From positions 1 through 37,992 of IMG/VR virus record IMGVR_UViG_3300020394_000991: DNA of 37,992 bases; one strand, written 5' to 3'. Below are positions 12,635 to 26,668 of the stretch, piece after piece. Position 1 is the stretch's first letter; the number at the start of each line of letters is the position of its first letter. A model generated the notes under the pieces. That model was not told the DNA's origin. It saw only the letters and a list, made by a program, of their open reading frames with translations, and did no database searches. This stretch comes from a virus. The position numbers and the translations under genes were made by a program.

Positions 12635-13905
12635 AAAAAACTGTCCACTAAAATGTTTTCTGCAGATTTTTTATCAAATCCTTTTGTCTGCAAGTAATAT
12701 AATTGTTCTTCGTCTACATTACTTATAGTGCAACCATGTGAACATTCAATTTCTTTGGTATAGATATCCAGGATAGGTCTGGTCTGCATTTTAGCAGTTT
12801 TAGATAACATTAGATTTGAATTATCCATACTGCCTGAAAATCCTTCACTAGCAGAACTTATTTCAAACTTTCCTATAAAAGATGTCTTAACTTCATCATT
12901 GCCTACGTTTCTTATGTCTACAGTACTTTTATTATCATGGTCAGAACTTCTAACCCTAACAAAGTTGTAATACTCGTTTCCTTTTGATATATTGTTTCTA
13001 CCTTGTAAATCTATTTCAACATCTGAACTACATTTAAAATAAAAGTTTTCTTGTGTGTATTGACTGCCTGTGTTTTTAAAATTAATTTTTACAGTACTAC
13101 CAGCATGGCATATAAACCTGCTGTCAAACACATTCCATCCACCATAATCATTAGACACTCTGTCAATTTCCAATGTACTGTTTTCTCTTACAATGTATGT
13201 TGTGTAATTCATTTGTCCTGCAAACAATTTTATATGTTCTTTCAATTTAACATGTGTGTCATATTGCACATCAAAAATTGTTGTGTTAGATTCTAGTACT
13301 GGTTCATCATTAGAATTTTCATATCTCACAGTTAAAGGATTCTTTTTATATCTATCTTTTGAACCATGTGGGAAAATTATTACGTTTGGATATGATGTAG
13401 TACCAAATGTAAAGTTGCTAAAGTTTCCTGTGTTTTCTATTAGTTTAATATATTCTGCATGTTTGTGTTTACTTTTCTTTATATAATCTAAAACCTGTAT
13501 GCCAAAAGGCTTCTTTTTATTAACAGATTCATTTGTAAAAATATTACCATCAACTAACACCATAGCATTTTTATTTGTAGTTGCTAAAAATTCCCATCTA
13601 TCTAATTTAGAAAATTTGTCCTTTGCGTCCATAGGACTTAAAATATCAATGTTGTATAATTTGTTTAGATTGAATGTGTTAAATTGTTCATCTTTGTAAT
13701 GTGGTAATTCTTTTTCTCTTAAAAATAACAAATTATCTATGTAACAATTTGTTAATTCATTATACATATTTCTATCAGTATGATGCTTTGTTAATTTTAT
13801 ATAGTCATCGCTGACTAGGAAGTCATACAAAGACTCTAAGTTATAGTAAAACTCGTTTTGATTAGATAATAGTGGGTATGAAAATAATTGCTTATACACT
13901 TTCAA
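12628..13905 (-). CDS. sufD: Fe-S scaffold subunit SufD
   Basis: Partner of SufB in the SufBC2D scaffold. The 425-aa protein has a divergent helical N-terminal region, a long beta-helix core, and the diagnostic C-terminus EIECSHGCTISNVDEEQLYY, including His390 that corresponds to the functionally important SufD histidine (E. coli His360), then a two-helix SufC-binding tail. It resembles SufB far less than SufD at the C-terminus. It overlaps sufC by 14 bases, giving coupled translation in the order C, D, S, T. Confidence 0.9.
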   Translation of the reverse strand: MKVYKQLFSYPLLSNQNEFYYNLESLYDFLVSDDYIKLTKHHTDRNMYNELTNCYIDNLLFLREKELPHYKDEQFNTFNLNKLYNIDILSPMDAKDKFSKLDRWEFLATTNKNAMVLVDGNIFTNESVNKKKPFGIQVLDYIKKSKHKHAEYIKLIENTGNFSNFTFGTTSYPNVIIFPHGSKDRYKKNPLTVRYENSNDEPVLESNTTIFDVQYDTHVKLKEHIKLFAGQMNYTTYIVRENSTLEIDRVSNDYGGWNVFDSRFICHAGSTVKINFKNTGSQYTQENFYFKCSSDVEIDLQGRNNISKGNEYYNFVRVRSSDHDNKSTVDIRNVGNDEVKTSFIGKFEISSASEGFSGSMDNSNLMLSKTAKMQTRPILDIYTKEIECSHGCTISNVDEEQLYYLQTKGFDKKSAENILVDSFLC

Positions 13906-14587
13906 ATCCTTTGCTGAAAATAGTTTGTGCTAAAGTATTATCTCCGACAACAACTTCATCTTTTTTAAGAACTATTACAGCATCAGGATTTAATCCTTCT
14001 ATGAGTTTTTCATAGTGTGTTACGACAATCAGTGTGTTGTTTTTATTGTGCCAATCTTTAAGTGTTGTGATTAAAGTTTTTATACCATCTACGTCTAAGC
14101 CACTATCCGGCTCATCTAGCATTGCAACTTTTTTGTTTAGCATTTGTAATTGTATAAGTTCGTTTTTCTTTTTCTCACCGCCACTTGCATCATGATTGAC
14201 ATTTCTTTTGTCCCAATCAGATGGGAGTTTCAGTGCATTACTATTTTCTTTGAACTTAGTTAATGTAGGTGCTATTTCACTACCTTTAAGATTTAATGCC
14301 TGCTTTAGCATTTGAAAATTACTTAGACCAGGAATACTAGTAGGTGATTGGAAAGCAACAAATAAACCAAGTTTTGCTCTTTGGTCAACTTCTAAATCTG
14401 ATATATCACTTCCCATAAATGATATATCTCCATCAACATTTAAATCGGGCCTACCCATTATGCTATGTAGTAATGTACTTTTACCTACACCATTAGCACC
14501 CATAACGACATAAGACTTACCTTGTTCAAAGTCAATGCTGATGTTTTCTAATACATCTTCTACGGAAAAATTCTTAAGTCTAAGCAT
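13892..14587 (-). CDS. sufC: Fe-S assembly ATPase SufC
   Basis: ABC-type ATPase that drives conformational change in SufBD. The 231-aa protein has Walker A GANGVGKS (residues 30-37), Q-loop FQSPTS, signature ASGGEKKK (134-141), Walker B VAMLDEPDSGLDVD with catalytic Glu159 and switch His191. It aligns from its first residue with E. coli SufC (MLS/MLR start). A perfect consensus promoter ends six bases before the ATG, predicting a leaderless mRNA. It is about 17 residues shorter than E. coli SufC. Confidence 0.96.
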   Translation of the reverse strand: MLRLKNFSVEDVLENISIDFEQGKSYVVMGANGVGKSTLLHSIMGRPDLNVDGDISFMGSDISDLEVDQRAKLGLFVAFQSPTSIPGLSNFQMLKQALNLKGSEIAPTLTKFKENSNALKLPSDWDKRNVNHDASGGEKKKNELIQLQMLNKKVAMLDEPDSGLDVDGIKTLITTLKDWHNKNNTLIVVTHYEKLIEGLNPDAVIVLKKDEVVVGDNTLAQTIFSKGFESV

Positions 14588-14593
14588 GGTAGT

Positions 14594-14622
14594 ATTATAC
14601 TGTCTTTTGTGCTGTATGTCAA
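14594..14622 (-). promoter_or_regulatory. Sigma70-type promoter with leaderless start, TTGACA-N17-TATAAT (sufC)
   Basis: Perfect consensus hexamers (-35 14617-14622, -10 14594-14599), 17-base spacer, and six bases to ATG 14587 of sufC. Gives sufC, sufD, sufS and sufT expression separate from sufB. Confidence 0.95.
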
Positions 14623-14759
14623 TCCTGATTATGCCTAGGATCTTGTTGTTGTCTAATCCACTCGGCTATTTGTTTTTCTTGTTCTTTTATTGTTTGTGCT
14701 TGGTCTTTGATTTTCTTATCTTGAAACCTAAGTCTTTGCTGTTGTTGTTTTTGTGCCAT
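14619..14759 (-). CDS. Small Gln-rich coiled-coil protein (46 aa)
   Basis: Begins [20 protein letters not shown] and is almost entirely a charged, glutamine-rich helix. ATG 14759 overlaps the stop of the cupin gene (TAATG); its TGA at 14621-14619 lies within the -35 region of the sufC promoter. Precise coupling to the cupin gene supports expression. Function unknown; a helix of this type could dimerise or bind a Suf partner. Confidence 0.6.
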   Translation of the reverse strand: MAQKQQQQRLRFQDKKIKDQAQTIKEQEKQIAEWIRQQQDPRHNQD

Positions 14760-15091
14760 TAGTGATTTCTCCCTCCGTCAAATACGCATACAAAGTATAA
14801 ACCTAAATGACTATTATTAAAGACTCTATGAAATTCTCCATCTTCTATGCAAATTACATCTCCTGCTTTTACAGGAAAACGTTCATCATCAATTTGCATT
14901 TCACCTTCGCCATCTACAAAGAAGTAAACTTCTTCTTGCCCTTTATGTGAATGTCCATTTGTTTTTTGATTTGCTCTTAAAAATGTACTGCTTAAAACTA
15001 AATTATTTCCAAAAGCATTATCTTTAAGTAAGTATGTGGCATTGTCTTTGATGACATCTCCGCCAACATCTTTAATTGTGACTTTCTTCAT
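14759..15091 (-). CDS. Cupin-domain protein inside the suf cluster
   Basis: 110-aa small beta-barrel. Cupin motif 1 is [20 protein letters not shown] (two His, one Glu metal ligands), motif 2 is [20 protein letters not shown] with the last His. The metal set is therefore intact. Cupins of this size can be sensors, isomerases or thiol dioxygenases; nothing indicates the substrate. It sits between sufB (four-base overlap) and sufC, so a sulfur- or iron-related role is plausible but unproven. Confidence 0.8.
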
Positions 15092-16542
15092 CCAACTGCT
15101 CCTTCCAATGTTACATCTAATAGTTTATTTGCTTCGGCGGCAAACTCTAATGGCAGTTTTTGAAATACGTCTTTACAAAAACCATTGACCACTAAGTTTA
15201 ATGCATCATCCTCATCAAATCCTCTTGTTGCAAGATAATACATTTGTTCTTCACTTATTTTTCCTGCACTTGCTTCATGTTCTACTTTTGCAGTATCATT
15301 ATTGCTTTCTATATAAGGTATAGTAAGTGCCCTACTGTCTTGTAACATCAAACTATCACATTTTGTGAAGTTTGTTGCATTATTGGCTCCTGGGTTTACT
15401 TTTACTTTTCCTCTATAAGTGTTTGTACTATCTCCAAAACTAATTCCTTTTGATATAACAGTTGACTTGGTATCCTTACCTAGATGTATCATTTTAGTTC
15501 CTGTGTCTGCTTGTTGTTTACCTTTTGTAACAGCAACACTATAAAACTCTCCTATACTACCATCACCTCTCAAAATACAACTAGGGTATTTCCAAGTTAC
15601 AGCACTACCTGTTTCTACCTGTGTCCAACTAACTTTACTCTTAACTCCTTTGCACATGGCACGTTTGGTTACAAAATTATATACACCTCCAACACCATTT
15701 TCGTCTCCTGGGTACCAATTTTGTACTGTTGAATATTTTATTTCTGCTCTGTCATGCGTTACTAATTCTACAACCGCCGCATGTAATGTGTTTTCATCAT
15801 AGGCTGGAGCAGTACAACCTTCTAAATAACTTACATAACTGTCATCGTCAGCAACAATTAATGTACGTTCAAATTGTCCTGTGTTTCTAGCATTAATACG
15901 AAAATATGTATTAAGTTCCATTGGGCACCTAACACCTTTTGGTATATAACAAAAAGTACCATCTGAGAATACAGCAGAGTTCAATGTAGCAAAATAATTA
16001 TCTGTGTATGGAACAACTGTACCTAAGTACTTTTTGACTAATTCTTCATGGTCTTTGACTGCTTCACTGATACTGCAAAACACTATGCCATGCTTTTCAA
16101 GTTCTTTTCTAAATGTAGTTGCAACACTAACACTATCAAAAACAGCATCGACGGCAACTGTGGGAATAAGGTTGTCAGGCTTTTTTTCTGTTTCTATACC
16201 TAACAATGCATCACGTTCATGTAAAGGAACACCTAACTTTTCAAACGTGTCTAAAATTTCTTGTGGTATCTCATCTTTATTTCTCAATTTGGGAGATGAG
16301 TGATAACTTAATTCTTGATAATCAACTGGATTGTAATCTAATTCACTCCAGTCCGGCTCGTCCATTTGTTTCCATCTTCTGTATGCTTTGAGCCTAAATT
16401 CTAATAACCATTCTGGTTCTTCTTTGATTGCACTGATTTTTCTTACAATGTCTTCGTTTAATCCTGCAGGAAAGGCATCACTTTCTAGTTCAGTGACAAA
16501 TCCTTGTTCATACTTTTCTTTATTAAGATTATCTATACTCAT
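15088..16542 (-). CDS. sufB: Fe-S scaffold subunit SufB
   Basis: Main scaffold of the SUF machine, where clusters form before handing to target proteins. The 484-aa product carries the SufB N-terminal [19 protein letters not shown], the core [20 protein letters not shown] and [15 protein letters not shown] segments, and C-terminal [20 protein letters not shown] then [19 protein letters not shown]. The Cys that pairs with the SufD histidine in E. coli (Cys405) appears as Ser403 here, by eye. It overlaps clpS (ATGA) and the cupin gene. Confidence 0.96.
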
Positions 16543-16838
16543 TCTACAGGAAACGTTTTAAGTTGTAATGGATGACCATTTGCACGAGCGACAGTAATTG
16601 CTTCATTTGTTTTTTGCTCGGCTATTTCAAAATTATAGTTTCCTGCAATAGCACTAGTGTTGTTATGAATTTCCATTGTTATTTCTTTTGCTGTAGTAAT
16701 GTTTTTATTAAAAACTTCAATTAACAATTTAATAACAAATTCCATTGGTGTATAATCATCATTATAAATGATAACATTATATCTAGGTGGATACTCTAAT
16801 TGTGTATTTGTTCTAGTTTTTACTGCTTCTTTTGTCAT
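16539..16838 (-). CDS. clpS: ClpS adaptor protein
   Basis: Adaptor that delivers N-degron substrates to Clp unfoldases. The 99-aa protein contains [20 protein letters not shown], the N-end-rule pocket residues (Asn-Asp-Asp), the conserved His in TMEIHNN, and [11 protein letters not shown]. The Asn, Asp and His that contact the N-terminal amino group in ClpS are kept, so it should bind destabilising N-termini. It is cotranscribed with sufB (four-base overlap) and lies four bases from the bL33 gene. Confidence 0.93.
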
Positions 16839-16842
16839 AGCC

Positions 16843-17046
16843 TTATTTACTGTGTGGTGGTAATTTTGCTTCTACAAATAGTTCGTGTTTGCGTTTTACC
16901 GGATTATACTTCTTTAATTTTAACTTCTGATTTTCAGAAGTCAACCTTTTTGTTTTAATTGCTGTGTAATGATATGTGTGACTATCCCTAGTTTCTCCTT
17001 CTGGAATCAAATAAACTATAGTCTTTCTTTTGTCTTTCTTTGCCAT
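16843..17046 (-). CDS. rpmG: Ribosomal protein bL33 homologue
   Basis: 67-aa basic protein that fits large-subunit protein bL33: MAKK start, THYHYT-type beta hairpin (TYHYTAIKTKR), then KLKLKKYNPVKRKHELFVEA, closely following the bL33 pattern LxLKKFDPxxRxHVxxxEAK. It has no zinc Cys, like proteobacterial bL33, and is about 12 residues longer, with an extension before the TYHYT strand and a KLPPHSK tail. In the cell bL33 sits near the ribosomal E site. It could replace host bL33 and alter translation of phage mRNA. Confidence 0.85.
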   Translation of the reverse strand: MAKKDKRKTIVYLIPEGETRDSHTYHYTAIKTKRLTSENQKLKLKKYNPVKRKHELFVEAKLPPHSK

Positions 17047-17057
17047 ATGTACTCACG

Positions 17058-17091
17058 AAAAAGGGGAGATAAGCATTATTCCTATCTCCCC
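17058..17091 (-). terminator. Rho-independent terminator after the heat-shock gene
   Basis: A nine-base perfect stem (GGGGAGATA at 17063-17071 with TATCTCCCC at 17083-17091) and an 11-base loop, followed on the minus strand by TTTTT. It lies between the hsp20 stop and the bL33 start. Confidence 0.85.
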
Positions 17092-17108
17092 AGTATTTAC
17101 CACGAAAT

Positions 17109-17549
17109 TTACTTAATTGAAATCTTTTGTGGCTTAAGAGCATCAGGTACGTTTCTAAACAAAGAAACTCTCAAAATACCGTCCTCTAACTTGGCTTCTT
17201 TCACTTCAACATGTTCTGCAAGTTTGAAAGTTCTTACGAAGTTTCTTTCTGCAATGCCTTTGTGTAAGTATTCAATCTCATCTCCATCTAGAACATTTGA
17301 TGTTCCGGAAATTTTGAGTGTGCCATCTTCTAATTCAATTTCGATATCTGCTTTTTTAAATCCTGCTACTGCAAGAGTAATCTCATAGATATCATCTTTT
17401 GTTTTAGAAATGTTATAAGGCGGATAGCCTGTAGCATTATTGAATGCTGGCTCATTGAAAAATTCATTGACTAATCTGTCGAATCCAATGCTTGTTTTAA
17501 ATAGTGGGGATAATGTATCGGTTGTGATACGAAATTGCTTATTTGTCAT
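17109..17549 (-). CDS. Small heat-shock protein (IbpA/Hsp20-like)
   Basis: 146-aa ATP-independent chaperone. The alpha-crystallin domain spans about residues 40-135: PPYNISKTKDDIYEITLAV, GFKKADIEIELEDGTLKISG, and the closing KLEDGILRVSLFRNVPDALK, with an IbpA-like N-terminus (LSPLFKTSIGFDRLVNEFF). A GGAG site precedes ATG 17549. Small heat-shock genes of this type are a common element of T4-like marine phages and probably assist capsid protein folding. Its transcript ends at the hairpin at 17058-17091. Confidence 0.93.
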   Translation of the reverse strand: MTNKQFRITTDTLSPLFKTSIGFDRLVNEFFNEPAFNNATGYPPYNISKTKDDIYEITLAVAGFKKADIEIELEDGTLKISGTSNVLDGDEIEYLHKGIAERNFVRTFKLAEHVEVKEAKLEDGILRVSLFRNVPDALKPQKISIK

Positions 17550-17573
17550 AATAATCTCCTATAGTTTAGCAAG

Positions 17574-17705
17574 TTATTTTATTCCACTTTTCCTAACCCA
17601 TAATGGCGAAAGGATAAGTCGCGAGTGAGGTCGTTTCCTGTTAGTGTGTTTTCTGTATCTCCTCACACACTTGTTACACTTCTTGGTTTCCTCCGATGTT
17701 GCCAT
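17574..17705 (-). CDS. Small basic protein with CxxC (43 aa)
   Basis: Starts MATSEETKKCNKCVRRYRKH; very Lys/Arg-rich with one CNKC pair. A longer version from a TTG at 17771 would add 22 residues. A single CxxC can form half of a zinc site in a dimer, and the basic composition suggests nucleic-acid binding; both are inference. The start site is weakly defined and the reading frame is short, so confidence is low. Confidence 0.4.
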   Translation of the reverse strand: MATSEETKKCNKCVRRYRKHTNRKRPHSRLILSPLWVRKSGIK

Positions 17706-17771
17706 CTTTGGCCCTTTGTTGGGTAACCCAATAATGTTGGTACTCTCTTCCCGAAGGCTTAGTACTACCAA

Positions 17772-17912
17772 CTACAATGTTTTCCTTTGTTTGGTCACCA
17801 GTCGGTTTGTTTCAGTTACCATCCACTTACCTTGTGTTACCTTTCTGGTTAACATTGTGCATTTAAATCTTACAGTAGGTCCAAGTTTCTTACGATTCTT
17901 TTTCCCTTGCAT
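17772..17912 (-). CDS. Small basic protein (46 aa)
   Basis: Begins MQGKKNRKKLGPTVRFKC and is dominated by Lys, Arg and Thr. ATG at 17912, TAG at 17774-17772. It is the first frame after the tandem early and late promoter at 17929-17977, with 16 bases between TATAAATA and the ATG. No Shine-Dalgarno site is obvious. The promoter position is the main support; function unknown, possibly nucleic-acid binding. Confidence 0.5.
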   Translation of the reverse strand: MQGKKNRKKLGPTVRFKCTMLTRKVTQGKWMVTETNRLVTKQRKTL

Positions 17913-17928
17913 GATTTTAATGCAAAGT

Positions 17929-17936
17929 TATTTATA
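17929..17936 (-). promoter_or_regulatory. T4-type late promoter element TATAAATA
   Basis: Exact TATAAATA on the minus strand, 16 bases before the 46-aa gene at 17912. T4 late promoters use this box with the phage sigma gp55. It sits just downstream of a sigma70-type promoter, so the unit may be read both early and late. Confidence 0.55.
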
Positions 17937-17947
17937 TAACTTAGTAT

Positions 17948-17977
17948 ATTATATAGTGTTTTTTGGCAAAAAATCAA
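17948..17977 (-). promoter_or_regulatory. Sigma70-type promoter, TTGATT-N18-TATAAT
   Basis: The -10 box is perfect (17948-17953), the -35 is TTGATT (17972-17977) and the spacer is 18 bases. The stop codon TGA of the upstream 77-aa gene is contained in the -35 box. Confidence 0.7.
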
Positions 17978-18207
17978 CCTTTTTTTGCCTTTTTTCTTAA
18001 ATTTCTGGTCTCAAAGTACATTCTTGTGTATGTTTTCCTTATAATTGCTACGGTTGTAAACACCAATGTGAGAAAAATAGAAGTCTGTAATGCAGTAAAA
18101 TCTAAGTCAAATGCAATAGCAACCAACAATAAATTCAATGGAAAGTTAATAATAAATGCCAAAAAAGTATCTGCTACTGCTTCTTTGAATGCTACTTTTT
18201 TATTCAT
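17974..18207 (-). CDS. Two-span membrane protein (DUF7220-like, 77 aa)
   Basis: Begins MNKKVAFKEAVADTFLAFII; hydrophobic segments at about residues 11-31 and 38-56, then IRKTYTRMYFETRNLRKKAKKG, a basic cytoplasmic tail. The helix-short loop-helix followed by a R-x-Y-x-x-R stretch resembles the DUF7220 phage family. Function unknown. Its TGA is embedded in the -35 box of the next promoter. ATG 18207 overlaps the upstream stop (ATGA). Confidence 0.75.
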   Translation of the reverse strand: MNKKVAFKEAVADTFLAFIINFPLNLLLVAIAFDLDFTALQTSIFLTLVFTTVAIIRKTYTRMYFETRNLRKKAKKG

Positions 18208-18548
18208 TTAAATACTTTCTCCACATATGGTTTCAAATTTCTAATAGGAAATTTATCTGTAAATCTCATTTTGTAAATCATTTCTGCTTCATCGCTCACA
18301 TCACTTGCATAAATTCTAGCAAAATAATTTAGATAAAAATCTATTGAATCTTCAAATTCACTTTCGTAAGGTTTACCCCAACTAACAAAATATTCAACAG
18401 GAATATTATTTTCTTCTAACCAATTTTTTAAATCTTGTGTTGCAATTTCACAAGCATCTAAATAGATGTGTTCATAATCTGAATCATCTTTTACAGGACA
18501 ACTTACTAACAGTAGTTCTCTTCCAGTATCAAAGTTTTTTGTTTCCAA
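18204..18548 (-). CDS. Hypothetical protein (114 aa, TTG start)
   Basis: I place the start at TTG 18548 (ETKNFDTGRELLLVSC follows), preceded by AAGGA at a good distance; an ATG at 18593 would force a 65-base overlap with the HNH gene. The product is mixed alpha/beta: LLLVSCPVKDDSDYEH at the start, LKNWLEENNIPVEYFVSW in the middle and an acidic helical C-terminal part. No family recognised. It could be a small nucleotide- or protein-binding domain. Confidence 0.6.
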   Translation of the reverse strand: METKNFDTGRELLLVSCPVKDDSDYEHIYLDACEIATQDLKNWLEENNIPVEYFVSWGKPYESEFEDSIDFYLNYFARIYASDVSDEAEMIYKMRFTDKFPIRNLKPYVEKVFK

Positions 18549-18981
18549 GGTAATCCTTCTCAATATATGATTTAGCCATATGACATAAAACACAAAGGCT
18601 TCTTATATTTTCCTTTGCATTAGAACCGCCTTGGCTCTTTAGGTGTATATGGTCTCCATGCATAACTCCACGCATTGCTCTTAATTTGTCATATTCATTT
18701 TCAACATGTCCAAATCGTAAGTCATCTTCACGTGGGTCATATCCACAGTTATCACATACCCAGTTACGATAAAACGTGTGGGGGCGGTCAGGTTTACCCA
18801 TTCCGCCATATTCCACACACTCAATTTGATGAGCCCTGCATAGCACTTGGCTACCGGGCCCTTCAAATGTGCTAATTGGATTATTACAATCCTCTAGCAT
18901 ACAAGTAGAGTTTACTCTAGTCTCTTTGAGATACTGAGCCGTACTCTTTGGCTTGTCCTTATTAGGGTCTCTTAGTCCCAT
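18529..18981 (-). CDS. HNH endonuclease
   Basis: 150-aa nuclease with a clear HNH core in the C-terminal third: RGVMHGDHIHLKSQGG (metal and catalytic His), SNAKENIRSLCVLCHMAKS (Asn and the CxxCH end). Two more Cys pairs lie in the N-terminal half (CMLEDCNN, VCDNCGYD), probably structural zinc sites. T4-like phages carry such enzymes as homing nucleases or packaging helpers. It overlaps the ParB-like gene by ten bases. Confidence 0.88.
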   Translation of the reverse strand: MGLRDPNKDKPKSTAQYLKETRVNSTCMLEDCNNPISTFEGPGSQVLCRAHQIECVEYGGMGKPDRPHTFYRNWVCDNCGYDPREDDLRFGHVENEYDKLRAMRGVMHGDHIHLKSQGGSNAKENIRSLCVLCHMAKSYIEKDYLGNKKL

Positions 18982-20120
18982 AAGTCCTCAGCCTTTACTG
19001 TATAACCATTGTTGGGGTCATACTTTGGAGTTTTAAGGTTAGTGCTTTTCTTAATTTGTGCAATTAAGAAAGGACCACCACATCTCCATTCTGTTGCAAA
19101 GCCTTTAAGTCCATGCTCAGCATAACTTTCTGGATTTGCAGATTGATACCATCTGGTATAGGACATTTTCACTTTGTCCCAAAAAGAACCAGTTTCACTA
19201 AAGTCTGCTTCAAAGAAGTCTTTAGTAAATCCTACAAGTTCTCTTATATAGTCAGTGTCAACAGTAATACCTTGTTGATGACATGCATCAAAGTATTCGT
19301 ACAACTGCCTAGCCTCCTTTGCTTGTACTGGTCGTTCTGCGTTTAGCATACTCCAATATCCTGCAAAGTATTTTGTGACTACAGGGTCTTTTGCTTTTGC
19401 TAGATTCTTTGTCATCAAAGTATCTGCTAACAAAGTAAATGCACCTGGCTCAGTTTCGTCACCAAACTTACTGTTGGTGGCAAACAAACCTGCTTGTTCA
19501 AAGAACACTTGTTTTTGGTTTGCTTTAATCCAAGCATCGTCATCAGCACCGTCGACTCTAACACCGAATACCATTTGCTTATAAGTATCGATAAAATCTA
19601 AAGGTTCCTTAGCATCACCATTTAGCAAAATAAAGTTACGTCTAATCTCTAACTTTTCTGCTGTTGGATACACTACTACAGGTACCATCATTTGTGCTGT
19701 ACGAACTCCAAACACTTTTGTTGCAATTATATAAAGAGCAACTGCGGTGTGTTGTCCGTCCCAGGCAATATATTTGTCTGGATGTTTAGGATCTACATAC
19801 ACCTGTATTGGCATCACCATTGTGTTCTTAAATGCTGATAGGATATTTACAATGTGCCTAAAATTTAATTGGCGTTGCATTGTAGTATCAATCAATATTT
19901 GATCCAACGTTGCGTCAACAGAGGTACACAATGCAATATCAGATAATTTCTTCCATTGCTTGTTCCTGCGTTTGAACTCATCTACGACACCTATTAGCAT
20001 ATTTTTGAATACTGGATTCAATGCTAAAGATTCGTTTAGACGGTCTTGTAAAGTAACAAAGTTACTTTGGGTTTGGTTGTATTGCCGATTAACCTTATCG
20101 GCATGGGTTAATGTTGTCAT
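18972..20120 (-). CDS. ParB/sulfiredoxin-like domain protein (382 aa)
   Basis: The segment KYIAWDGQHTAVALYIIA (about residues 110-130) matches the ParB/sulfiredoxin nucleotide-binding loop (G-x-H-R/T-x-x-A), preceded by the strand MPIQVYVDPKHP. The C-terminal 200 residues are helical. Such proteins in phages are of unknown activity; ParB-like domains bind CTP or cleave nucleic acid. ATG 20120 has a strong GAGGAGG site seven bases upstream, so the upstream in-frame ATG at 20174 is in the leader. A consensus promoter and structured leader precede it. Confidence 0.7.
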   Translation of the reverse strand: MTTLTHADKVNRQYNQTQSNFVTLQDRLNESLALNPVFKNMLIGVVDEFKRRNKQWKKLSDIALCTSVDATLDQILIDTTMQRQLNFRHIVNILSAFKNTMVMPIQVYVDPKHPDKYIAWDGQHTAVALYIIATKVFGVRTAQMMVPVVVYPTAEKLEIRRNFILLNGDAKEPLDFIDTYKQMVFGVRVDGADDDAWIKANQKQVFFEQAGLFATNSKFGDETEPGAFTLLADTLMTKNLAKAKDPVVTKYFAGYWSMLNAERPVQAKEARQLYEYFDACHQQGITVDTDYIRELVGFTKDFFEADFSETGSFWDKVKMSYTRWYQSANPESYAEHGLKGFATEWRCGGPFLIAQIKKSTNLKTPKYDPNNGYTVKAEDLWD

Positions 20121-20196
20121 TTTATGCCTCCTCGGACTCTGTCCTATTATTGCGGGCCTAATTGCCCTATGCATGGTAAGATTATCTCACCTGACT
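20121..20196 (-). promoter_or_regulatory. Structured 5' leader with three hairpins
   Basis: Between the promoter and GAGGAGG of the ParB-like gene, three small hairpins follow one another: GGTGAG/CTTACC, GGGC/GCCC and GGAC/GTCC. The third ends just before the ribosome site. Likely affects translation or mRNA stability; no known riboswitch is recognised. Confidence 0.45.
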
Positions 20197-20198
20197 TT

Positions 20199-20218
20199 TA
20201 CTATTATATGTCTTTTAA
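20199..20218. repeat. 20-base promoter repeat, copy 1
   Basis: Identical to 22699-22718 and covering the -10 box and part of the spacer of the promoter at 20203. The -35 sides differ, but both have GGTTGAC. Confidence 0.85.
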
Positions 20219-20230
20219 GATTTTTGTCAA
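20203..20230 (-). promoter_or_regulatory. Sigma70-type promoter, TTGACA-N16-TATAAT
   Basis: Both hexamers are perfect consensus (-35 20225-20230, -10 20203-20208), 16-base spacer. It shares a 20-base block with the promoter at 22703. Drives the ParB-like gene and HNH downstream. The TGA of the upstream gene is inside the -35 box. Confidence 0.9.
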
Positions 20231-21078
20231 CCTTTAAATAATTCTTTTTTATCATAAAGGTCACAAATTTGTGAAAAGGTGTAATCATTATTACCCAAAA
20301 ATCTAAAACTCATTCTGTTATTTCCAGTTGTAGTAACTCTATGCCAACTGCTTAAAGGTATAATGTATGGGCAATCGTATTGGTTCTTTCGGCCCACATG
20401 AGTAAGTTGGTCTGCATGAATATCGTCCATCAAGTCCATTACAGTTGTAGTAGTCATGCCATCTTCTGATATTTGCAAAGCCATTTCTTTGAAATATTCT
20501 TGGTTTATATCATTTAAATTTCCAACTACTGCTCTTTTGTGTTCTGTTACTTTGTCTATAAACCTTTCTGTCAAAGCCTTAAAACGTTGTTCGTATTCAT
20601 CAGAACCTTTAGCAAAATCAACATAAGTTTCTCCTTCTTCAAGATACAAAGGAAAGTTTAATGCAAAATTTGTTCTACCCATTAGGTATTGTTGTTGTGC
20701 TTTGGTTACCCAATATGGATAACCTTCTCTGTGCCAACCTGTGCTTGTATGAAACTTCAAACAAGATATTGGCATCATTTTTTTACCAAGTATAGTGGTT
20801 TTTATTGGTGTAAGTATATCTATAGTAAATTGCTCTCTTATCCATTCAATAAGATTTTTTGCAATTTTATTATTATGAAGTGATGCTCCTACTGGTGCAT
20901 CAGTGTCATTGTATGGATTATGATACCATACAAAGTTTTTTGTAATTGTGTTTTTGGATATTTGTTTTTTAGCAGATGCAATTTCAAAGTCTTGTTCGTC
21001 AAATATTTCATCTAACGAATATGGAAATTGTAATTGTGTTAAATCAATATACGGATGTGTTTCAGTATCTACAAACAT
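20227..21078 (-). CDS. Putative 2-oxoglutarate/Fe(II) oxygenase-like protein (283 aa)
   Basis: The central region has CLKFHTSTGWHREGYPYWV (HxE metal motif, His and Glu), a strand GRTNFALNFPLYL, and a C-terminal IPLSSWHRVTTTGNNRMSFR with a distal His and an Arg in the position that binds 2-oxoglutarate. This is a double-stranded beta-helix layout. The family is distant from TauD and the call is tentative; a non-enzymatic beta-helix is possible. The substrate is unknown. Its end overlaps the next promoter. Confidence 0.5.
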   Translation of the reverse strand: MFVDTETHPYIDLTQLQFPYSLDEIFDEQDFEIASAKKQISKNTITKNFVWYHNPYNDTDAPVGASLHNNKIAKNLIEWIREQFTIDILTPIKTTILGKKMMPISCLKFHTSTGWHREGYPYWVTKAQQQYLMGRTNFALNFPLYLEEGETYVDFAKGSDEYEQRFKALTERFIDKVTEHKRAVVGNLNDINQEYFKEMALQISEDGMTTTTVMDLMDDIHADQLTHVGRKNQYDCPYIIPLSSWHRVTTTGNNRMSFRFLGNNDYTFSQICDLYDKKELFKG

Positions 21079-21090
21079 GTATATACTTAT

Positions 21091-21537
21091 TCATTTTCCG
21101 ATATCTTTGATGTTATTTTTACCAATTACTTGATATGCACCTTTGTTGTAAGCAGGAGCAATAGTGTAGTTTTTACATATCTCTTGCTTTTCTTTTTCCC
21201 ACTCGAGATTCTTTGAACCAGTGCCTGAACTAGAACTGATAGGCATACTAGGATATTTCTTAGCATGTTCTTTCATTTGTCTTGCACGTTCTTGTGCATA
21301 ATGATTAGGCTTTGCTGTCTTGAATGCCTCTCTGCTTCTAGGATCTACTTTAGGTTGTATTCCATGACAGTAATCAACATACTGTTCAAAAGTCCACTTA
21401 GGCAAACCCATACGTTTGTGTTCTTTGTTTTTTATTCTCAAACCCTCTTCCCACTTGGCAATGTTTGCCTTGGTCATTTTAGGCTTGTATTTTCTATTTC
21501 GAATGGTCGTTAGACCTTGTGCTAAATGCATTGTCAT
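21091..21537 (-). CDS. Hypothetical basic protein (148 aa)
   Basis: ATG 21537 overlaps the stop of the membrane protein gene (TAATG) and has an AAGGCGG site upstream, so I use it rather than the in-frame ATG at 21591. The product is Lys/Arg-rich (MTMHLAQGLTTIRNRKYKPK...) with a helical middle (EERARQMKEHAKK type) and a conserved-looking end YTIAPAYNKGAYQVIG. No known domain. Possibly a DNA-associated or virion protein. Confidence 0.6.
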   Translation of the reverse strand: MTMHLAQGLTTIRNRKYKPKMTKANIAKWEEGLRIKNKEHKRMGLPKWTFEQYVDYCHGIQPKVDPRSREAFKTAKPNHYAQERARQMKEHAKKYPSMPISSSSGTGSKNLEWEKEKQEICKNYTIAPAYNKGAYQVIGKNNIKDIGK

Positions 21538-21905
21538 TATGTTACCGCCTTCAATATTTCTACAAAAAGTTTGCCATATTTTGCAAACCATGTTTGGTCT
21601 TCCGTGAGTGCAATGCCATAACTGTTTGCTAGTTGTATAGCAGTATCTGTGCCTAAGAAAGCATTACTCACTAATAAAAATCCTGCACTAGATACTAACA
21701 AATATAAATGATCCTTACCTCGTAAACTGTGTGTCATAATAATCACAGTACCACCAAACAGCATAAGATATGCATATATTTCCATGTGCGGATTCAAAGA
21801 TATTCCCAATGACATTGTCAATCCAAGAAATAATAGTGAACAACCTACAATTTTCAATGTAGTCTGAACAAAGTTGTCCACCTTCTTCTTTTGTTGTTTT
21901 GTCAT
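21537..21905 (-). CDS. Multi-span membrane protein (122 aa)
   Basis: After a basic N-terminus (MTKQQKKKVDN) come hydrophobic stretches at about residues 18-36, 43-58 and 66-84, so three spans, with a polar C-terminal tail containing SYGIALTEDQTWFAKYGK. ATG 21905 follows the preceding gene's stop with overlap. No recognisable family; likely host inner-membrane protein. Confidence 0.65.
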   Translation of the reverse strand: MTKQQKKKVDNFVQTTLKIVGCSLLFLGLTMSLGISLNPHMEIYAYLMLFGGTVIIMTHSLRGKDHLYLLVSSAGFLLVSNAFLGTDTAIQLANSYGIALTEDQTWFAKYGKLFVEILKAVT

Positions 21906-22111
21906 TATGAAATATACAATTCGGCCTCTTCGTTAAAAGATTCTAATTCGTTGAAAAGTTGCTGACTTGTAAAACCAAGTTTTTTCTCTGCATTATCCAA
22001 ATGAATATCTGCATCAACAAAATTCCAGTTTATAGTACCATCCTCATTGATGTTTTCTGGATTTTTTATTGCCTTGACAATTAAGTCTTTTATAGTTATT
22101 TTTCTACTCAT
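21905..22111 (-). CDS. Hypothetical protein (68 aa)
   Basis: Acidic soluble protein starting MSRKITIKDLIVKAIKNPEN, predicted largely helical, with the C-terminal SQQLFNELESFNEEAELYIS. It is the first gene after the consensus promoter at 22142-22170, with a 30-base leader and a weak AAGG site. No motif recognised; being promoter-proximal it is probably made early. Confidence 0.65.
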   Translation of the reverse strand: MSRKITIKDLIVKAIKNPENINEDGTINWNFVDADIHLDNAEKKLGFTSQQLFNELESFNEEAELYIS

Positions 22112-22141
22112 AGTTACGCCTTTTTCTAAATTAATACATAT

Positions 22142-22170
22142 ATTATACTAAAAATAATAGGTTATGTCAA
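22142..22170 (-). promoter_or_regulatory. Sigma70-type promoter, TTGACA-N17-TATAAT
   Basis: Perfect consensus at both hexamers (-35 22165-22170, -10 22142-22147) with a 17-base spacer. Starts the unit running from the 68-aa gene through the two genes after it. Confidence 0.92.
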
Positions 22171-22194
22171 CCTTTTTACCAGTTTTTTTGGCAA

Positions 22195-22302
22195 TTATTC
22201 TTCAAAATCTAACTGACTTGTTTGTTGCTGTCTCCTATGGAAAGATACTGTATGTAAGGGTTCTTGTATGAGCCAACATATCAGCCAAAAACAAATAGTC
22301 AC
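22195..22302 (-). CDS. Possible small membrane peptide (35 aa, GTG start)
   Basis: Frame GTG 22302 to TAA 22197-22195 gives a hydrophobic stretch TICFWLICWLI and a polar tail ending QLDFEE. There is no good ribosome site. The frame stays open further upstream but contains no ATG there. The stretch 22171-22383 otherwise holds only the terminator at 22341. Listed as a low-confidence candidate or decayed gene. Confidence 0.25.
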   Translation of the reverse strand: MTICFWLICWLIQEPLHTVSFHRRQQQTSQLDFEE

Positions 22303-22340
22303 TATTATAGGTAACTTATGTCTGAACTTTAAATCTCCAC

Positions 22341-22363
22341 AAAAAAAGGAGCCCGGAGGCTCC
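22341..22363 (-). terminator. Rho-independent terminator after the winged-helix gene
   Basis: GGAGCC (22348-22353), CGGA loop, GGCTCC (22358-22363): six-base perfect stem, followed on the minus strand by seven Ts (22347-22341). It closes the winged-helix transcript. Confidence 0.9.
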
Positions 22364-22383
22364 TTAATTTTTGCAAGTTTAAC

Positions 22384-22647
22384 TTATGAACTTGCTAATG
22401 CTTTGTAACCAGCGGCAATAACTGCTCTGCTTGGAGTACCAAGTCTGTAAACTCTACGAGTTCTGTTTTTGGTATCAGTTACAGTATTTAGGTAAATTGG
22501 ATACCCTTTGAATCTTAGTGCTTGAATCACTGCTTGTGGGTTACCAATTCCAAAGAAAGATTTCATTTGTGCTGAAGACAATGTTCTTCCTTCTTGAAGA
22601 GCCGAAAGTACTTTAGACTCTTTAGTTAATGTAGTAGTTGTAGTCAT
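22384..22647 (-). CDS. Winged-helix DNA-binding-like protein (87 aa)
   Basis: Begins MTTTTTLTKESKVLSALQEG. Residues about 10-45 form a helix-turn-helix-like segment (LSSAQMKSFFGIGNPQAVIQ, then ALRFKGYPIYL), with a beta wing NRTRRVYRLG. It resembles winged-helix proteins common in marine phages and could be an early regulator. ATG 22647 is chosen because AGGAGG lies just upstream; an in-frame ATG at 22758 lies in the promoter region. A hairpin leader and its own promoter precede it, and a terminator follows, so it is a one-gene unit. Confidence 0.7.
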   Translation of the reverse strand: MTTTTTLTKESKVLSALQEGRTLSSAQMKSFFGIGNPQAVIQALRFKGYPIYLNTVTDTKNRTRRVYRLGTPSRAVIAAGYKALASS

Positions 22648-22677
22648 ATGACCTCCTAATTTTCTACTTAATAATTC

Positions 22678-22693
22678 TGTGCTAAATTGCACA
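22678..22693 (-). promoter_or_regulatory. Leader hairpin upstream of the winged-helix gene
   Basis: TGTGC-loop(6)-GCACA, five-base stem in the 5' untranslated region, about 30 bases before the start. It may stabilise the mRNA or be an operator, since the stem is a short palindrome. Confidence 0.4.
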
Positions 22694-22698
22694 TTATC

Positions 22699-22718
22699 TA
22701 CTATTATATGTCTTTTAA
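22699..22718. repeat. 20-base promoter repeat, copy 2
   Basis: Identical to 20199-20218; covers the -10 box and spacer of the winged-helix gene promoter. Suggests duplication of a promoter module or a shared regulator site. Confidence 0.85.
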
Positions 22719-22730
22719 AAAGAAAGTCAA
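22703..22730 (-). promoter_or_regulatory. Sigma70-type promoter, TTGACT-N16-TATAAT
   Basis: -35 TTGACT (22725-22730), perfect -10 (22703-22708), 16-base spacer. The -10 and its flank share 20 identical bases with the promoter at 20203. Confidence 0.85.
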
Positions 22731-22747
22731 CCTTTTTTATTAATTTT

Positions 22748-22894
22748 TTAAATATCATTGTTTTTTGTTGCTTTTAGTGAATAATAAATTGTAATTGCTC
22801 CAAATACCATAGGGCATAAGAAAACTGCAATCAAGCCAAGTACACCTATATCAAAGAACTGCTTAACTGCAATAAAATATGTATCTAAGTTCAT
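22748..22894 (-). CDS. Small single-span membrane protein (48 aa)
   Basis: Starts MNLDTYFIAVKQFFDIGVLG; one hydrophobic segment (about residues 17-38, VLGLIAVFLCPMVFGAITIYY) and a short Lys/Asn-rich tail. ATG 22894 overlaps the stop of the cupin gene (ATGA), which supports translation. Ends just upstream of the winged-helix promoter. Function unknown. Confidence 0.6.
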   Translation of the reverse strand: MNLDTYFIAVKQFFDIGVLGLIAVFLCPMVFGAITIYYSLKATKNNDI

Positions 22895-23331
22895 CCTTTA
22901 TATCTCTCCGCTAAGTATTGTTCGTGTTGTTTCCATTCCCCATTGTCTATAAATCCCCATTCTCTTAACTGTGGACCGGGAATAAAAAGAGTCCAAGTAT
23001 CAACGCCAGGCTCCAACTCAATGCGGTGAAGGCTACGACTCCCTGCAAGGCGTATAGTTCCGGGTGGTCTCCACTTTCGCTCGCCAGTTTTGAGATGCTC
23101 CCAATAGCCACCTTTAAGGATAATAGTGCAATAAGGCCAAGGATGGTCATGTAAATCATCCGGGTCTCCTTTATGAAAGTTATGTAAAAATATGTTGAAA
23201 GGGAACCATTTGCGTTCTTTAAGAAACAAATAGTATCTGGTTAGATAGGGCTCATTATCAAGCCTATCCATAATTATTCTTTTACGTCCTAAACGTTCAA
23301 GAATCTTTAGAAATGTTTTCATGTTGTGCAA
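22891..23331 (-). CDS. Cupin-like protein (146 aa)
   Basis: Beta-barrel metal-site pattern: DDLHDHPWPYCTIILKGGYW (His-x-His, Cys and Gly-rich turn) and SRSLHRIELEPGVDTWTLFI with a later His. The layout resembles cysteine-dioxygenase-like or other small-molecule cupins; a Cys near the metal site is notable. Start could also be the Met at 23322 (residue 4). It overlaps the nucleotidyltransferase gene by 35 bases. The substrate is unknown; nearby sugar-nucleotide enzymes suggest sugar modification. Confidence 0.65.
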   Translation of the reverse strand: MHNMKTFLKILERLGRKRIIMDRLDNEPYLTRYYLFLKERKWFPFNIFLHNFHKGDPDDLHDHPWPYCTIILKGGYWEHLKTGERKWRPPGTIRLAGSRSLHRIELEPGVDTWTLFIPGPQLREWGFIDNGEWKQHEQYLAERYKG

Positions 23332-23752
23332 CTCTCTGTCTTAAACTTGTACTGCTAAAACTATGGTCTCTACCATTAAACACCAATTTGATGTTTCTGT
23401 CTTTACATATAGTTTTACCTGTAAAGTCTTTATCTTTGTATTCGACTCCTAACACTCTTACATTAATAGGAAGTGTTAAAAGTAAATCCTCTAGATCCTG
23501 CTCTGTCGCATAACAAACAATTTCATCTATATATTTTACAGCCGCTAATTGTATTTGTCTTTCCACTAAACTTTGTACTGGCTGATTTTTTGTGTCGGGT
23601 CTGTCTATAGTAGGATCTGTCTGTAAACCTACAATTAAATAATCACAATGATGTTTCGCTTCTTCTAGCATTGTGATATGTCCTGCATGTAACAAATCGA
23701 ATGTACTACAAGTAAATCCAATTTTGCCACAATCTTTATAACTTAATCTCAC
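23297..23752 (-). CDS. Cytidylyltransferase-like nucleotidyltransferase
   Basis: 151-aa HxGH nucleotidyltransferase: TCSTFDLLHAGHITMLEEAK (nucleotide binding), ERQIQLAAVKYIDE, and the C-terminal SFSSTSLRQRVAQ loop (ISSTxLR in family). Transfers CMP or another nucleotide to a phosphorylated alcohol or sugar, as glycerol-3-phosphate cytidylyltransferase or the HldE C-terminal domain do. It pairs with the second nucleotidyltransferase at 24189. ATGA overlap with the ferritin-like gene. Confidence 0.85.
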   Translation of the reverse strand: MRLSYKDCGKIGFTCSTFDLLHAGHITMLEEAKHHCDYLIVGLQTDPTIDRPDTKNQPVQSLVERQIQLAAVKYIDEIVCYATEQDLEDLLLTLPINVRVLGVEYKDKDFTGKTICKDRNIKLVFNGRDHSFSSTSLRQRVAQHENISKDS

Positions 23753-24192
23753 GCAAAGTCCTTTAACATTTTTTTGATTTCTAGTGCATGTTGTTCTTCT
23801 TGACCGATTTGCCCTCTTGCATATTCTTCTAAATACACACTAGCACCATCGACCTCTGCTAACAACTTCTTGTATAAATTTACAGCATAAGTTTCATGCT
23901 CTAAACTTTCTTCAAGTATTTTTAAAATAGAATGGTCATGCGATTCTTCAATGTCTGCAATAACTTGGCTAGGATGTCCATTTAATCCTGTGATTAGTTC
24001 TCCAGCCTGTAAGGCATGTGCTAAACTTTCGTTTGCCTGTTCTTGCAAGAATGTTACAATAGGTATTCTATATGGTCCTGTAACCATAAGCGAACTATGT
24101 GCATATCTCACAACACCAGCCATTTCATACTCTATAATTTCATTAAGTATTTCACATACTCTCGATTCATTTAATTCTTTCAATTCCATCAT
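23749..24192 (-). CDS. Ferritin-like diiron protein (bacterioferritin-like)
   Basis: 147-aa four-helix protein. Helix 1 NEIIEYEMAGVVRYAH, helix 2 EQANESLAHALQAGELI, helix 3 LEESLEHETYAVNLYKKLL and helix 4 GQIGQEEQHALEIKKML carry the Glu/His pattern of the ferritin superfamily. The usual ExxH of helix 2 is shifted to ExxxH, so one metal ligand is uncertain. Could store or detoxify iron, or protect DNA. It is sandwiched between two nucleotidyltransferase genes with short overlaps. A phage ferritin-like gene would fit iron acquisition from the host or iron loading of Fe-S proteins. Confidence 0.75.
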   Translation of the reverse strand: MMELKELNESRVCEILNEIIEYEMAGVVRYAHSSLMVTGPYRIPIVTFLQEQANESLAHALQAGELITGLNGHPSQVIADIEESHDHSILKILEESLEHETYAVNLYKKLLAEVDGASVYLEEYARGQIGQEEQHALEIKKMLKDFA

Positions 24193-24971
24193 TCTCCGTT
24201 GTAATACTCAAGACGTTCTATATCGTCCTCAGTGGTTTCTTCGCCATATTGTATTTCTATAATATGGCAAGGTTCATCAAAAGGATTATATGCTTGATGC
24301 CAATCACCTTGTTTGACATGAAAAACATTATCCTTACTCAAAGTGTGGATATTAAATTTATCTGGATCTCCACAACTATGTTTTAAATTCATTTTGCCTT
24401 TGCTAACAAACCACATTTCACTTCTTTTAAAATGTCTTTGATAACTTATTCCTTTGTTTGGTTCAATGATTAGTTCTTTTACACGAACAACATCATCTTG
24501 AAACAAGTCACTAAACTCGCCCCAAACTCTTCTAGTTGTTGGATATTTCCATTCTTTTAAAATCCAACTACTGCTATTGGCTTTGTTTTCTCCGCCAACA
24601 CCAAATAAAAATTCATAACCTTCAACTTTCATTTCAGGTATATTTTCTTTAGTTCTGTCTCCGCCATTGCAAAAAATAAACTCTACATCTTTTGCAGTAC
24701 CTTTAAATGCTTTTTTAACATCTTCTAATCCTGCGGAAACACTTCCATCTTTGTCTATTACACCATAAACATAATCAACCATTTCCATACGTTCTATTAT
24801 GTTTGCTCTTTCTTCAAAAGGCATAAAAGGTCTGCCTTTTTTTCTAGTAAGCCATTCGTCGCTGTTTAACAAAACAACAAGTTTGTCTCCATGTGCTTTT
24901 GCACTTTCTAAATAATTGATATGTCCAGAATGCAGTGGATCGAACCCTCCACTAACAACGACAATTTTCAT
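24189..24971 (-). CDS. Nucleotidyltransferase fused to a cupin (260 aa)
   Basis: Residues about 1-140 are a cytidylyltransferase domain: VSGGFDPLHSGHINYLESAK, then FEERANIIERMEMVDYV and SSSWILKEW. Residues about 145-255 are a cupin resembling the C-terminal domain of mannose-6-phosphate isomerase/ManC: YQRHFKRSEMWFVSKGKM, KQGDWHQAYNPFDEP and DIERLEYY. The two domains would activate and shape a sugar precursor. It is the first enzyme after bS21 in the transcript, separated by one base. Confidence 0.8.
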   Translation of the reverse strand: MKIVVVSGGFDPLHSGHINYLESAKAHGDKLVVLLNSDEWLTRKKGRPFMPFEERANIIERMEMVDYVYGVIDKDGSVSAGLEDVKKAFKGTAKDVEFIFCNGGDRTKENIPEMKVEGYEFLFGVGGENKANSSSWILKEWKYPTTRRVWGEFSDLFQDDVVRVKELIIEPNKGISYQRHFKRSEMWFVSKGKMNLKHSCGDPDKFNIHTLSKDNVFHVKQGDWHQAYNPFDEPCHIIEIQYGEETTEDDIERLEYYNGE

Positions 24972-24972
24972 T

Positions 24973-25401
24973 TTAGTAATGCCCTAGATTTCTTTGACGT
25001 ATCTGTTGACGCATTTTGGCATCTCTCATCTTTCTGGACTTTCTTTTACTCTTCATCCATTTAACGCCAGTCAACTCATACTGTTTCATATCACCTCGAG
25101 CCTCTGCATCACGTACCCAACGTTCCCAACGTTTTTTTGCTTGTTGCTTTTTACGTTTACGTTTCTCACTAGGCTTTTCGTAATATTGTTGTTTTGCTAA
25201 TTCTTTTTGAAAATCAGACTTTTCAAGTTTTTTCTTTAAAACTCTTATTGCTTTATTTACATCGCCATTTCTTACTTCAACAGCCGCCTTGAACTTATCT
25301 AAATAATGTTCTTCTTTTTTAGGTCTGTCATCTCTTTTTCGTTGATTAAACGATTTTGTATATGATTTATTTCTTTGATTTTGATTGCTTCTATTTTTCA
25401 A
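24973..25401 (-). CDS. rpsU: Ribosomal protein bS21 homologue with long tails (TTG start)
   Basis: 142-aa, extremely basic. Residues about 36-90 match bS21: AAVEVRNGDVNKAIRVLKKK, then FQKELAKQQYYEKPSEKRKR, the YEKPxxxRKRK motif that defines the family. The flanking tails are longer than host bS21 (about 70 aa). The start is TTG at 25401, one base after the clpX stop, with AGAGG overlapping that stop; no ATG occurs for many codons. Bacterial bS21 sits near the mRNA 5' end and Shine-Dalgarno helix, so a phage copy could redirect initiation. A perfect promoter lies inside clpX. Confidence 0.85.
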   Translation of the reverse strand: MKNRSNQNQRNKSYTKSFNQRKRDDRPKKEEHYLDKFKAAVEVRNGDVNKAIRVLKKKLEKSDFQKELAKQQYYEKPSEKRKRKKQQAKKRWERWVRDAEARGDMKQYELTGVKWMKSKRKSRKMRDAKMRQQIRQRNLGHY

Positions 25402-25402
25402 G

Positions 25403-26668
25403 TTAACCTCTTAATTTAATTTTGTAATCCTTATCTGTGACTTCATTGCCATTATTATAAAGGAAAATAGGGTGTGTGTCAACATCTTTGGTAGGATAAG
25501 TTTTAAATTTTATACTTTCTACTCCAGATTCCTTTAATTTAGGGCCTCTAAACATGATGTTATGTAAACTAACTTCTATAATACTTTTTAATCCTCTAGC
25601 ACCAATTTTGTTTTTTCTAGCCAATCTAGCAACATCTTTATAGTATTGTTCTTCAAATTCTAATTTTATTTCATCAAACTCCATTAGTTTTTGCACTTGT
25701 GGAATAATACTTGCATTGGATTTTTTAAGTATTGTTACCATATGTTTTTCTTCTAATTCATTTAGTGTAACAATATTTGGAAGTCTTCCTACCAATTCTG
25801 GTATCAAGCCAAATGATATTAAGTCTCTATGGTCAATGCTTTCTTGCCATTCTGTATCTTCCTTTGTATTCAATTTAGAATTGAATCCCATATTCTTTTT
25901 GTTTATCCTAGCATTCACAAGTTTTTCTATACCCACAAATGCTCCACTACAAATGAATAAAATGTTTGTGGTATCTACATCTACATAGTCTGGACGTTTT
26001 GTGCCTCCTGTAGGTATTTTAACAACTGTGCCTTCTATTAATCTTAATAGTGCTTGTTGTACACCTTCTCCACTTATATCCTTTGTACTGGCATTAGATT
26101 CACTGCTACGAGCCTTTTTATCTATTTCATCTAAAAATACTATTCCATGTTCTGCAACCGAAACGTCCCAGTTACATTGATGTAATAATCGTTCTATTAC
26201 ACTTTCTACATCTTCACCTACATAACCTGCTTCAGTTAATGTTGTAGCATCTGCAATAGTAAAAGGTACGTTTAATCGTTTGGCAAGAGTTTTAGCAAGT
26301 AGTGTTTTTCCACTTCCTGTAGGACCTAGCATAATAACATTACTTTTTTCTATTTTAGGTTCTTCGTCTCCATAAAATAATCTTTTATAATGATTATATG
26401 CAACAACACTCAAAACTTCTTTTGCATGTTCTTGGCTGATTACAACCTTATTAAGATGGTCATTAATTTCGTCAGGCGTAGGTACTTCAGTGATATCTAA
26501 ATCATCTATAGTATTTTCGTCGTTGATAATTTTATGACTAATACTAATACATTCATTGCAAATGTATGAGTTAGGTCCAGCAATTAATTTTTTGACTTCA
26601 TTTCTGTTTTTGCCACAGAAACTACATGTTAAATTTTTATCGTTTGAATCGTTTATGTTATCGCTCAT
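25403..26668 (-). CDS. clpX: ClpX ATP-dependent unfoldase
   Basis: 421-aa AAA+ unfoldase. N-terminal zinc site CSFCGK...CNEC (Cys15, 18, 37, 40), Walker A GPTGSGKT (115-122), pore loop GYVG (148-151), Walker B VFLDEIDK, the GEGVQQALLRLIEGT segment and a ClpP-docking loop with MGF (260-262) in the place of IGF. All catalytic parts look intact. Feeds tagged proteins to ClpP; no ClpP gene is seen here, so it probably uses host ClpP. Overlaps the coiled-coil gene by four bases. Confidence 0.95.
   Translation of the reverse strand: MSDNINDSNDKNLTCSFCGKNRNEVKKLIAGPNSYICNECISISHKIINDENTIDDLDITEVPTPDEINDHLNKVVISQEHAKEVLSVVAYNHYKRLFYGDEEPKIEKSNVIMLGPTGSGKTLLAKTLAKRLNVPFTIADATTLTEAGYVGEDVESVIERLLHQCNWDVSVAEHGIVFLDEIDKKARSSESNASTKDISGEGVQQALLRLIEGTVVKIPTGGTKRPDYVDVDTTNILFICSGAFVGIEKLVNARINKKNMGFNSKLNTKEDTEWQESIDHRDLISFGLIPELVGRLPNIVTLNELEEKHMVTILKKSNASIIPQVQKLMEFDEIKLEFEEQYYKDVARLARKNKIGARGLKSIIEVSLHNIMFRGPKLKESGVESIKFKTYPTKDVDTHPIFLYNNGNEVTDKDYKIKLRG
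25454..25482 (-). promoter_or_regulatory. Sigma70-type promoter, TTGACA-N17-TATAAT, inside clpX
   Basis: Perfect hexamers (-35 25477-25482, -10 25454-25459), 17-base spacer, located in the last codons of clpX. It would give bS21 and the downstream sugar genes expression independent of clpX. Confidence 0.9.

Follow-up and report, generated by a model that had tools for sequence, protein, structure and literature searches.

The virus record analyzed here (the window, taken as the whole stretch of 37,992 bases) probably, at a rough probability of 0.6, belongs to a large T4-like marine phage, one that produces bL33 and bS21 ribosomal proteins of its own for exchange on host ribosomes, with SAR86 or a relative as the likeliest host, present or past. 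Judged from their sequences, both genes are real ribosomal protein genes kept by purifying selection, and the bL33 is of a type that, in a cellular scan considered through the best 80 of 223 relatives, is shared by the phage and one SAR86 clade only. Genome comparison further indicates that this phage-type protein has displaced the classical bL33 in that clade, the sister clade retaining the classical gene beside rpmB. Phage and cells therefore share a part of the ribosome: the cell lineage has a bL33 of phage type as its own, and in it a core ribosomal protein has given way to a type that viruses also have. It also ties two phage ribosomal proteins to the abundant marine SAR86, for which no described phage isolate was found in the literature searched, and makes the function of such proteins testable in SAR86-type ribosomes.

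The phage bL33 gene (16843..17046, minus strand) encodes 67 residues without zinc-binding cysteines and is marked by a SAR86-type IPEGETRDSHTYHYT hairpin and a -KLPPHSK tail. Its match to the Pfam Ribosomal_L33 profile (PF00471; E = 6.6e-6, 26.8 bits) lies above the gathering cut-off of 25 bits and covers positions 15–47 of 47; a full-length match is no requirement of the Pfam cut-off, but the shortfall still reflects real divergence. All 30 related contigs match the profile at E ≤ 0.001, with 12 passing the cut-off. The window protein also matches 44 sequences of solved structures, nearly all named bL33 or L33, and a profile of the phage proteins finds bL33 chains at E-values down to 6e-6. 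The predicted structure has four strands in a weak model (pLDDT 63), and the top 30 PDB matches in a fold search are structures of ribosomes or mitoribosomes, in most cases with a bL33 chain, at weak E-values (best 0.18). Pairwise dN/dS has a median of 0.08 across 408 pairs, none of them above 1.

The bS21 gene (24973..25401, minus strand) encodes 142 residues from a TTG start, with a core at about residues 41–91 set between an N-terminal extension of about 40 residues and a C-terminal extension of about 50, the latter containing a conserved TGxKWMKxKRK motif. The same plan, a core extended on both sides, is found in most relatives, where bS21 of this lineage has about 127–151 residues. Pfam Ribosomal_S21 (PF01165) is matched at positions 2–53 of 55 (E = 7.8e-16; score 58 bits, cut-off 27), and 34 bS21 or bS21m sequences in the PDB match the window protein. 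Helices are predicted at residues 48–73 and 79–102 and a third at 119–139 (mean pLDDT 71); the PDB matches in the fold search are weak ones to mitoribosomal bS21m (E 0.58). Median pairwise dN/dS is 0.12 over 18 pairs, again with none above 1. With both proteins above their Pfam cut-offs and matching solved ribosomal chains, the earlier note named the two families correctly. Chance open reading frames are excluded because relatives of bL33 are encoded in 83 IMG/VR stretches, 14 of the 30 larger records with bL33 have bS21 as well, and both genes are under purifying selection.

That the two proteins act outside ribosomes, moonlighting as decoys, for example, or in the binding of phage RNA, would agree with the divergence of bL33, which aligns with only two thirds of its Pfam profile, and with the long basic extensions of bS21. 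It is nonetheless very improbable, as purifying selection is strong, the core motifs are kept, and the same bL33 type is the sole one detected in a whole SAR86 clade. This last observation makes it very probable that the phage-type bL33 serves SAR86-type cells as a ribosomal protein. In the exchange that we favor, the phage would produce its two proteins at what is most likely a late stage of infection, and host ribosomes would trade their own loosely bound bL33 and bS21 for them.

Several elements of this picture have precedents. Both proteins were already reported on marine viral contigs by Mizuno et al. 2019 (PMC6375957), with bS21 accounting for 88% of detections on aquatic viral contigs and bL33 found on over 10 contigs, in agreement with the earlier description of bS21 as common and bL33 as rarer in viruses. 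The available text of that paper also presents viral ribosomal proteins as being under purifying selection, bS21 and bL33 as loosely bound and exchangeable on ribosomes, the exchange idea itself, and the incorporation of bS21 from pelagiphage HTVC008M into E. coli 70S ribosomes. Over 99% of the viruses described there have one ribosomal protein gene and 8 contigs have two, whereas in the present lineage nearly half of the larger bL33 records also have bS21; the available text mentions neither a SAR86-type bL33, nor displacement in SAR86, nor the leader hairpin described below. A full-text search on L33 transfer or displacement and SAR86 returned, in the texts available, no report of this case.

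Among GenBank phages, bS21 matches were found in HTVC008M, Mosig, and an uncultured phage (52–55% identity over about 40 residues), and no relative of bL33 was found. HTVC008M, a Kyanoviridae T4-like phage, resembles the window in having a bS21 (AGE60443, 67 residues) near an Hsp20 gene, but this protein is half as long as that of the window and 55% identical to it over 42 residues, no bL33 was found, and a TAAATA hexamer stands 5 nt before the start in 1 of 7 occurrences in the 49 kb examined. The jumbo cyanophage PhiMa05 likewise has a phage bL33 and a host lineage sharing phage-like ribosomal proteins, but differs, by its description in the available text, in having six ribosomal proteins (bL33 and five others) of Vampirovibrio type (PMC13157829). 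In bS21 phages of Bacteroidetes the protein is expressed late, and Hsp20 and Clp genes often lie near it in published bS21 phages; these viruses differ in their Flavobacteria-type bS21 and, as far as the available text goes, in that no other ribosomal protein gene is reported in the curated genomes (PMC9723584).

In the window, bL33 and bS21 both lie within the region 16843–25401 but are not adjacent: other genes fill the roughly 7.9 kb that separates them. An Hsp20 small heat-shock protein gene (17109..17549, minus strand) lies upstream of bL33 and a ClpS adaptor gene (16539..16838, minus strand) downstream, the ATG of the latter being preceded at exactly 5 nt by TAAATA; a SUF cluster (SufT-like, SufS, SufD, SufC, and SufB; 11094..16542, minus strand) follows. 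A ClpX-like AAA+ unfoldase gene (25403..26668, minus strand) immediately precedes bS21 within one gene run. The window-type order Hsp20-bL33-ClpS-SufBCDS occurs at 14 loci, the SUF neighborhood beside bL33 and clpS being kept in 14 relatives, and the order TNase-bL33-PTPS...ClpX-bS21 occurs at nine. Elsewhere bL33 adjoins a T4-like terminase (L027) or lies near gp32 and UvsX homologues (L041, L068) or peptide deformylase (L012). T4-type TerL, gp32, and UvsX are thus found near bL33 in related contigs, and the window itself has only a lysozyme related to baseplate-hub and endolysin families. As separate observations, the SUF genes amount to a near-complete iron-sulfur cluster operon on a phage contig, and a 400-residue protein (18972–20174, minus strand) has a median identity of 97% in five relatives and no PHROG, Pfam, or GenBank phage match.

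The tie to SAR86 comes from a scan of the phage bL33 alignment against 84,980 species genomes. Among the best 80 of 223 relatives, SAR86 proteins rank first (45 loci, 71–77% identity, about 76%), followed by those of Pelagibacteraceae/SAR11 (51–55%, about 53%). The IPEGETRDSHTYHYT segment or close variants of it are common to phage and SAR86 proteins, and SAR11 bL33 is without the HTYHYT signature. A match to the phage profile at E of about 1e-37 is found in 37 of 101 genomes of the SAR86A order. By Pfam L33, the classical protein (at least 58 bits) is present in 68 of 202 SAR86-order genomes, and 31 more have weak phage-type matches only; among the SAR86-order genomes listed, each has a single match and none has both types. 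Some 90 bp separate classical bL33 (rpmG) from rpmB in 10 of 10 classical genomes, and in phage-type genomes where rpmB was found bL33 is ectopic, away from rpmB, the phage type occurring in two different chromosomal neighborhoods on contigs of up to 1.3 Mb. In a tree of host ClpX with an E. coli sequence as outgroup, the phage-type genomes form one clade (99/95). It is this combination of type split, rpmB adjacency, and ClpX clade that indicates displacement within a single SAR86 clade. One contig binned as Euryarchaeota (L119) also has a SAR86-type bL33 and is probably misbinned.

How the type came to be shared is best considered from the bL33 trees, in which phage and SAR86-type proteins form a clade (100/100) that is sister to the SAR11 type, and the classical SAR86 protein falls among those of other gammaproteobacteria. 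The likely cause is a transfer, in either direction, between SAR86 and this type of phage. In free protein trees the SAR86-type proteins form one clade inside the phages, although a clade of all phage proteins is not rejected (p-AU 0.52 for protein, 0.27 for codon positions 1+2, and 0.47 for all positions), and with 67 columns in the alignment either direction would fit. A tentative scenario, placed somewhat short of even odds, is that a bL33 of SAR11-like alphaproteobacterial source evolved in phages, passed from T4-like phages to SAR86, and replaced the clade's own protein, with phages still tuning SAR86 ribosomes by means of it during a partly leaderless late program. Plain capture from a SAR86 host, a reading about direction alone that fits within the overall one, is possible if rather doubtful: SAR86 holds the nearest cellular relatives (among the best 80 of 223) and phage monophyly survives the tests just given, but the phage proteins occur in several lineages and contexts and enclose those of SAR86 in the free trees. 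Moreover, because the sister clade of this gammaproteobacterium keeps the classical gene at rpmB, the phage type appears foreign to SAR86 too.

For the host of the phage, the bL33 type would make SAR86 or a relative the most likely candidate, present or past, and the SAR11 host assumed by the earlier note is unsupported for the same reason. Some results count against the SAR86 reading: bS21, in an unresolved tree, falls in a clade of its own that is close to neither SAR86 nor SAR11, and a ClpX search of 203 SAR86-order genomes recognized no contig of this phage lineage. The host could instead be SAR11 or another alphaproteobacterium, the SAR86 likeness of bL33 recording one old transfer that says nothing of today's host. 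The sister position of SAR11-type bL33, the pelagiphages HTVC008M and Mosig as cultured relatives by bS21, and a composition slightly closer to SAR11 all favor this, as does SufB, which is present in SAR11 and was not found in any of 20 SAR86-order genomes searched, so that the phage SUF genes are of non-SAR86 origin. Set against it are the low identity and missing signature of SAR11 bL33 and a phage SufB that is no closer to SAR11 (63–64%) than to other proteobacteria (62–69%), and it is judged unlikely. SufB and ClpX themselves gave no host link, and composition was uninformative, tetranucleotide profiles showing no preference for SAR86 over SAR11. No tRNA gene was found in the window and hence no tRNA-based link; five related records with bL33 near PTPS have tRNA genes for Glu and Ser and, in some, Gly and Asp.

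The two genes differ in their leaders. Before bL33 stands a hairpin of 11 bp (GGGGAGATAGG/CTTATCTCCCC; 17063..17091, minus strand), with a T4-late-promoter-like TAAATA upstream of it (17094..17099, minus strand) that is invariant, at 0–4 nt from the hairpin, in 13 aligned window-type loci. The stem, of 7–12 bp, has 10 distinct sequences in 14 loci with pairing kept through the changes, and lies 7–18 nt from the ATG without a clear Shine-Dalgarno sequence. Fold-energy z-scores range from -1.4 to -6.7 in the ten that were folded, and for the window 0 of 200 shuffles were as good; an Rfam search gave no match. The window has a U-tract here that is not conserved in relatives. The hairpin may be a 5' stabilizing element, a terminator of hsp20, or both. 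The bS21 start is preceded by a GAGG Shine-Dalgarno sequence (25407..25410, minus strand) conserved in most relatives; the start codon is TTG in most of the window's subclade, GTG in L104, and ATG in other subclades.

T4-like late promoters are also exposed elsewhere in this lineage, at positions giving predicted leaderless mRNAs. Relatives contribute 1,110 starts, each defined as the first ATG in a mechanical open reading frame, and 89 of 206 upstream TAAATA occurrences lie exactly 5 nt before the ATG. Control hexamers have no comparable peak at 5 nt (ATAAAT and AAATAT, which overlap the motif, peak at 6 and 4 nt), and in the stretches examined T4 peaks at 27–28 nt with no peak at 5 nt and Syn9 has none at 5 nt. 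The arrangement occurs at four window starts, 6794, 16838, and 32251 (minus strand) and 35094 (plus strand), and, in L009 and L010 among other relatives, before bL33 itself. The geometry of T4 late promoters puts the transcript start at the ATG for this spacing, and a subset of late genes therefore likely has leaderless mRNAs. To this extent the earlier proposal of leaderless mRNAs stands; a genome-wide lack of leaders is rejected, as 32% of the starts in the window have Shine-Dalgarno-like pairing of ≤ -4 kcal/mol, compared with 14% in controls (p = 0.004), and 40 of 56 same-strand gaps measure 10 nt or less. The suggested link between leaderless initiation and the ribosomal proteins found no support, because the same late promoters and 5-nt peak (71 of 215) recur in T4-like relatives whose examined stretch is without bL33, and bS21 has its GAGG and bL33 its hairpin leader. 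In SAR86, TATAAT lies 6 nt before the ATG in 14 and 7 nt in 7 of 358 starts, and Shine-Dalgarno pairing is near background. The leaderless signatures of phage (TAAATA-N5-ATG) and SAR86 (TATAAT-N6-ATG) fit a SAR86 host but do not prove it. On its own, the SAR86 start pattern suggests that leaderless mRNAs are common in SAR86.
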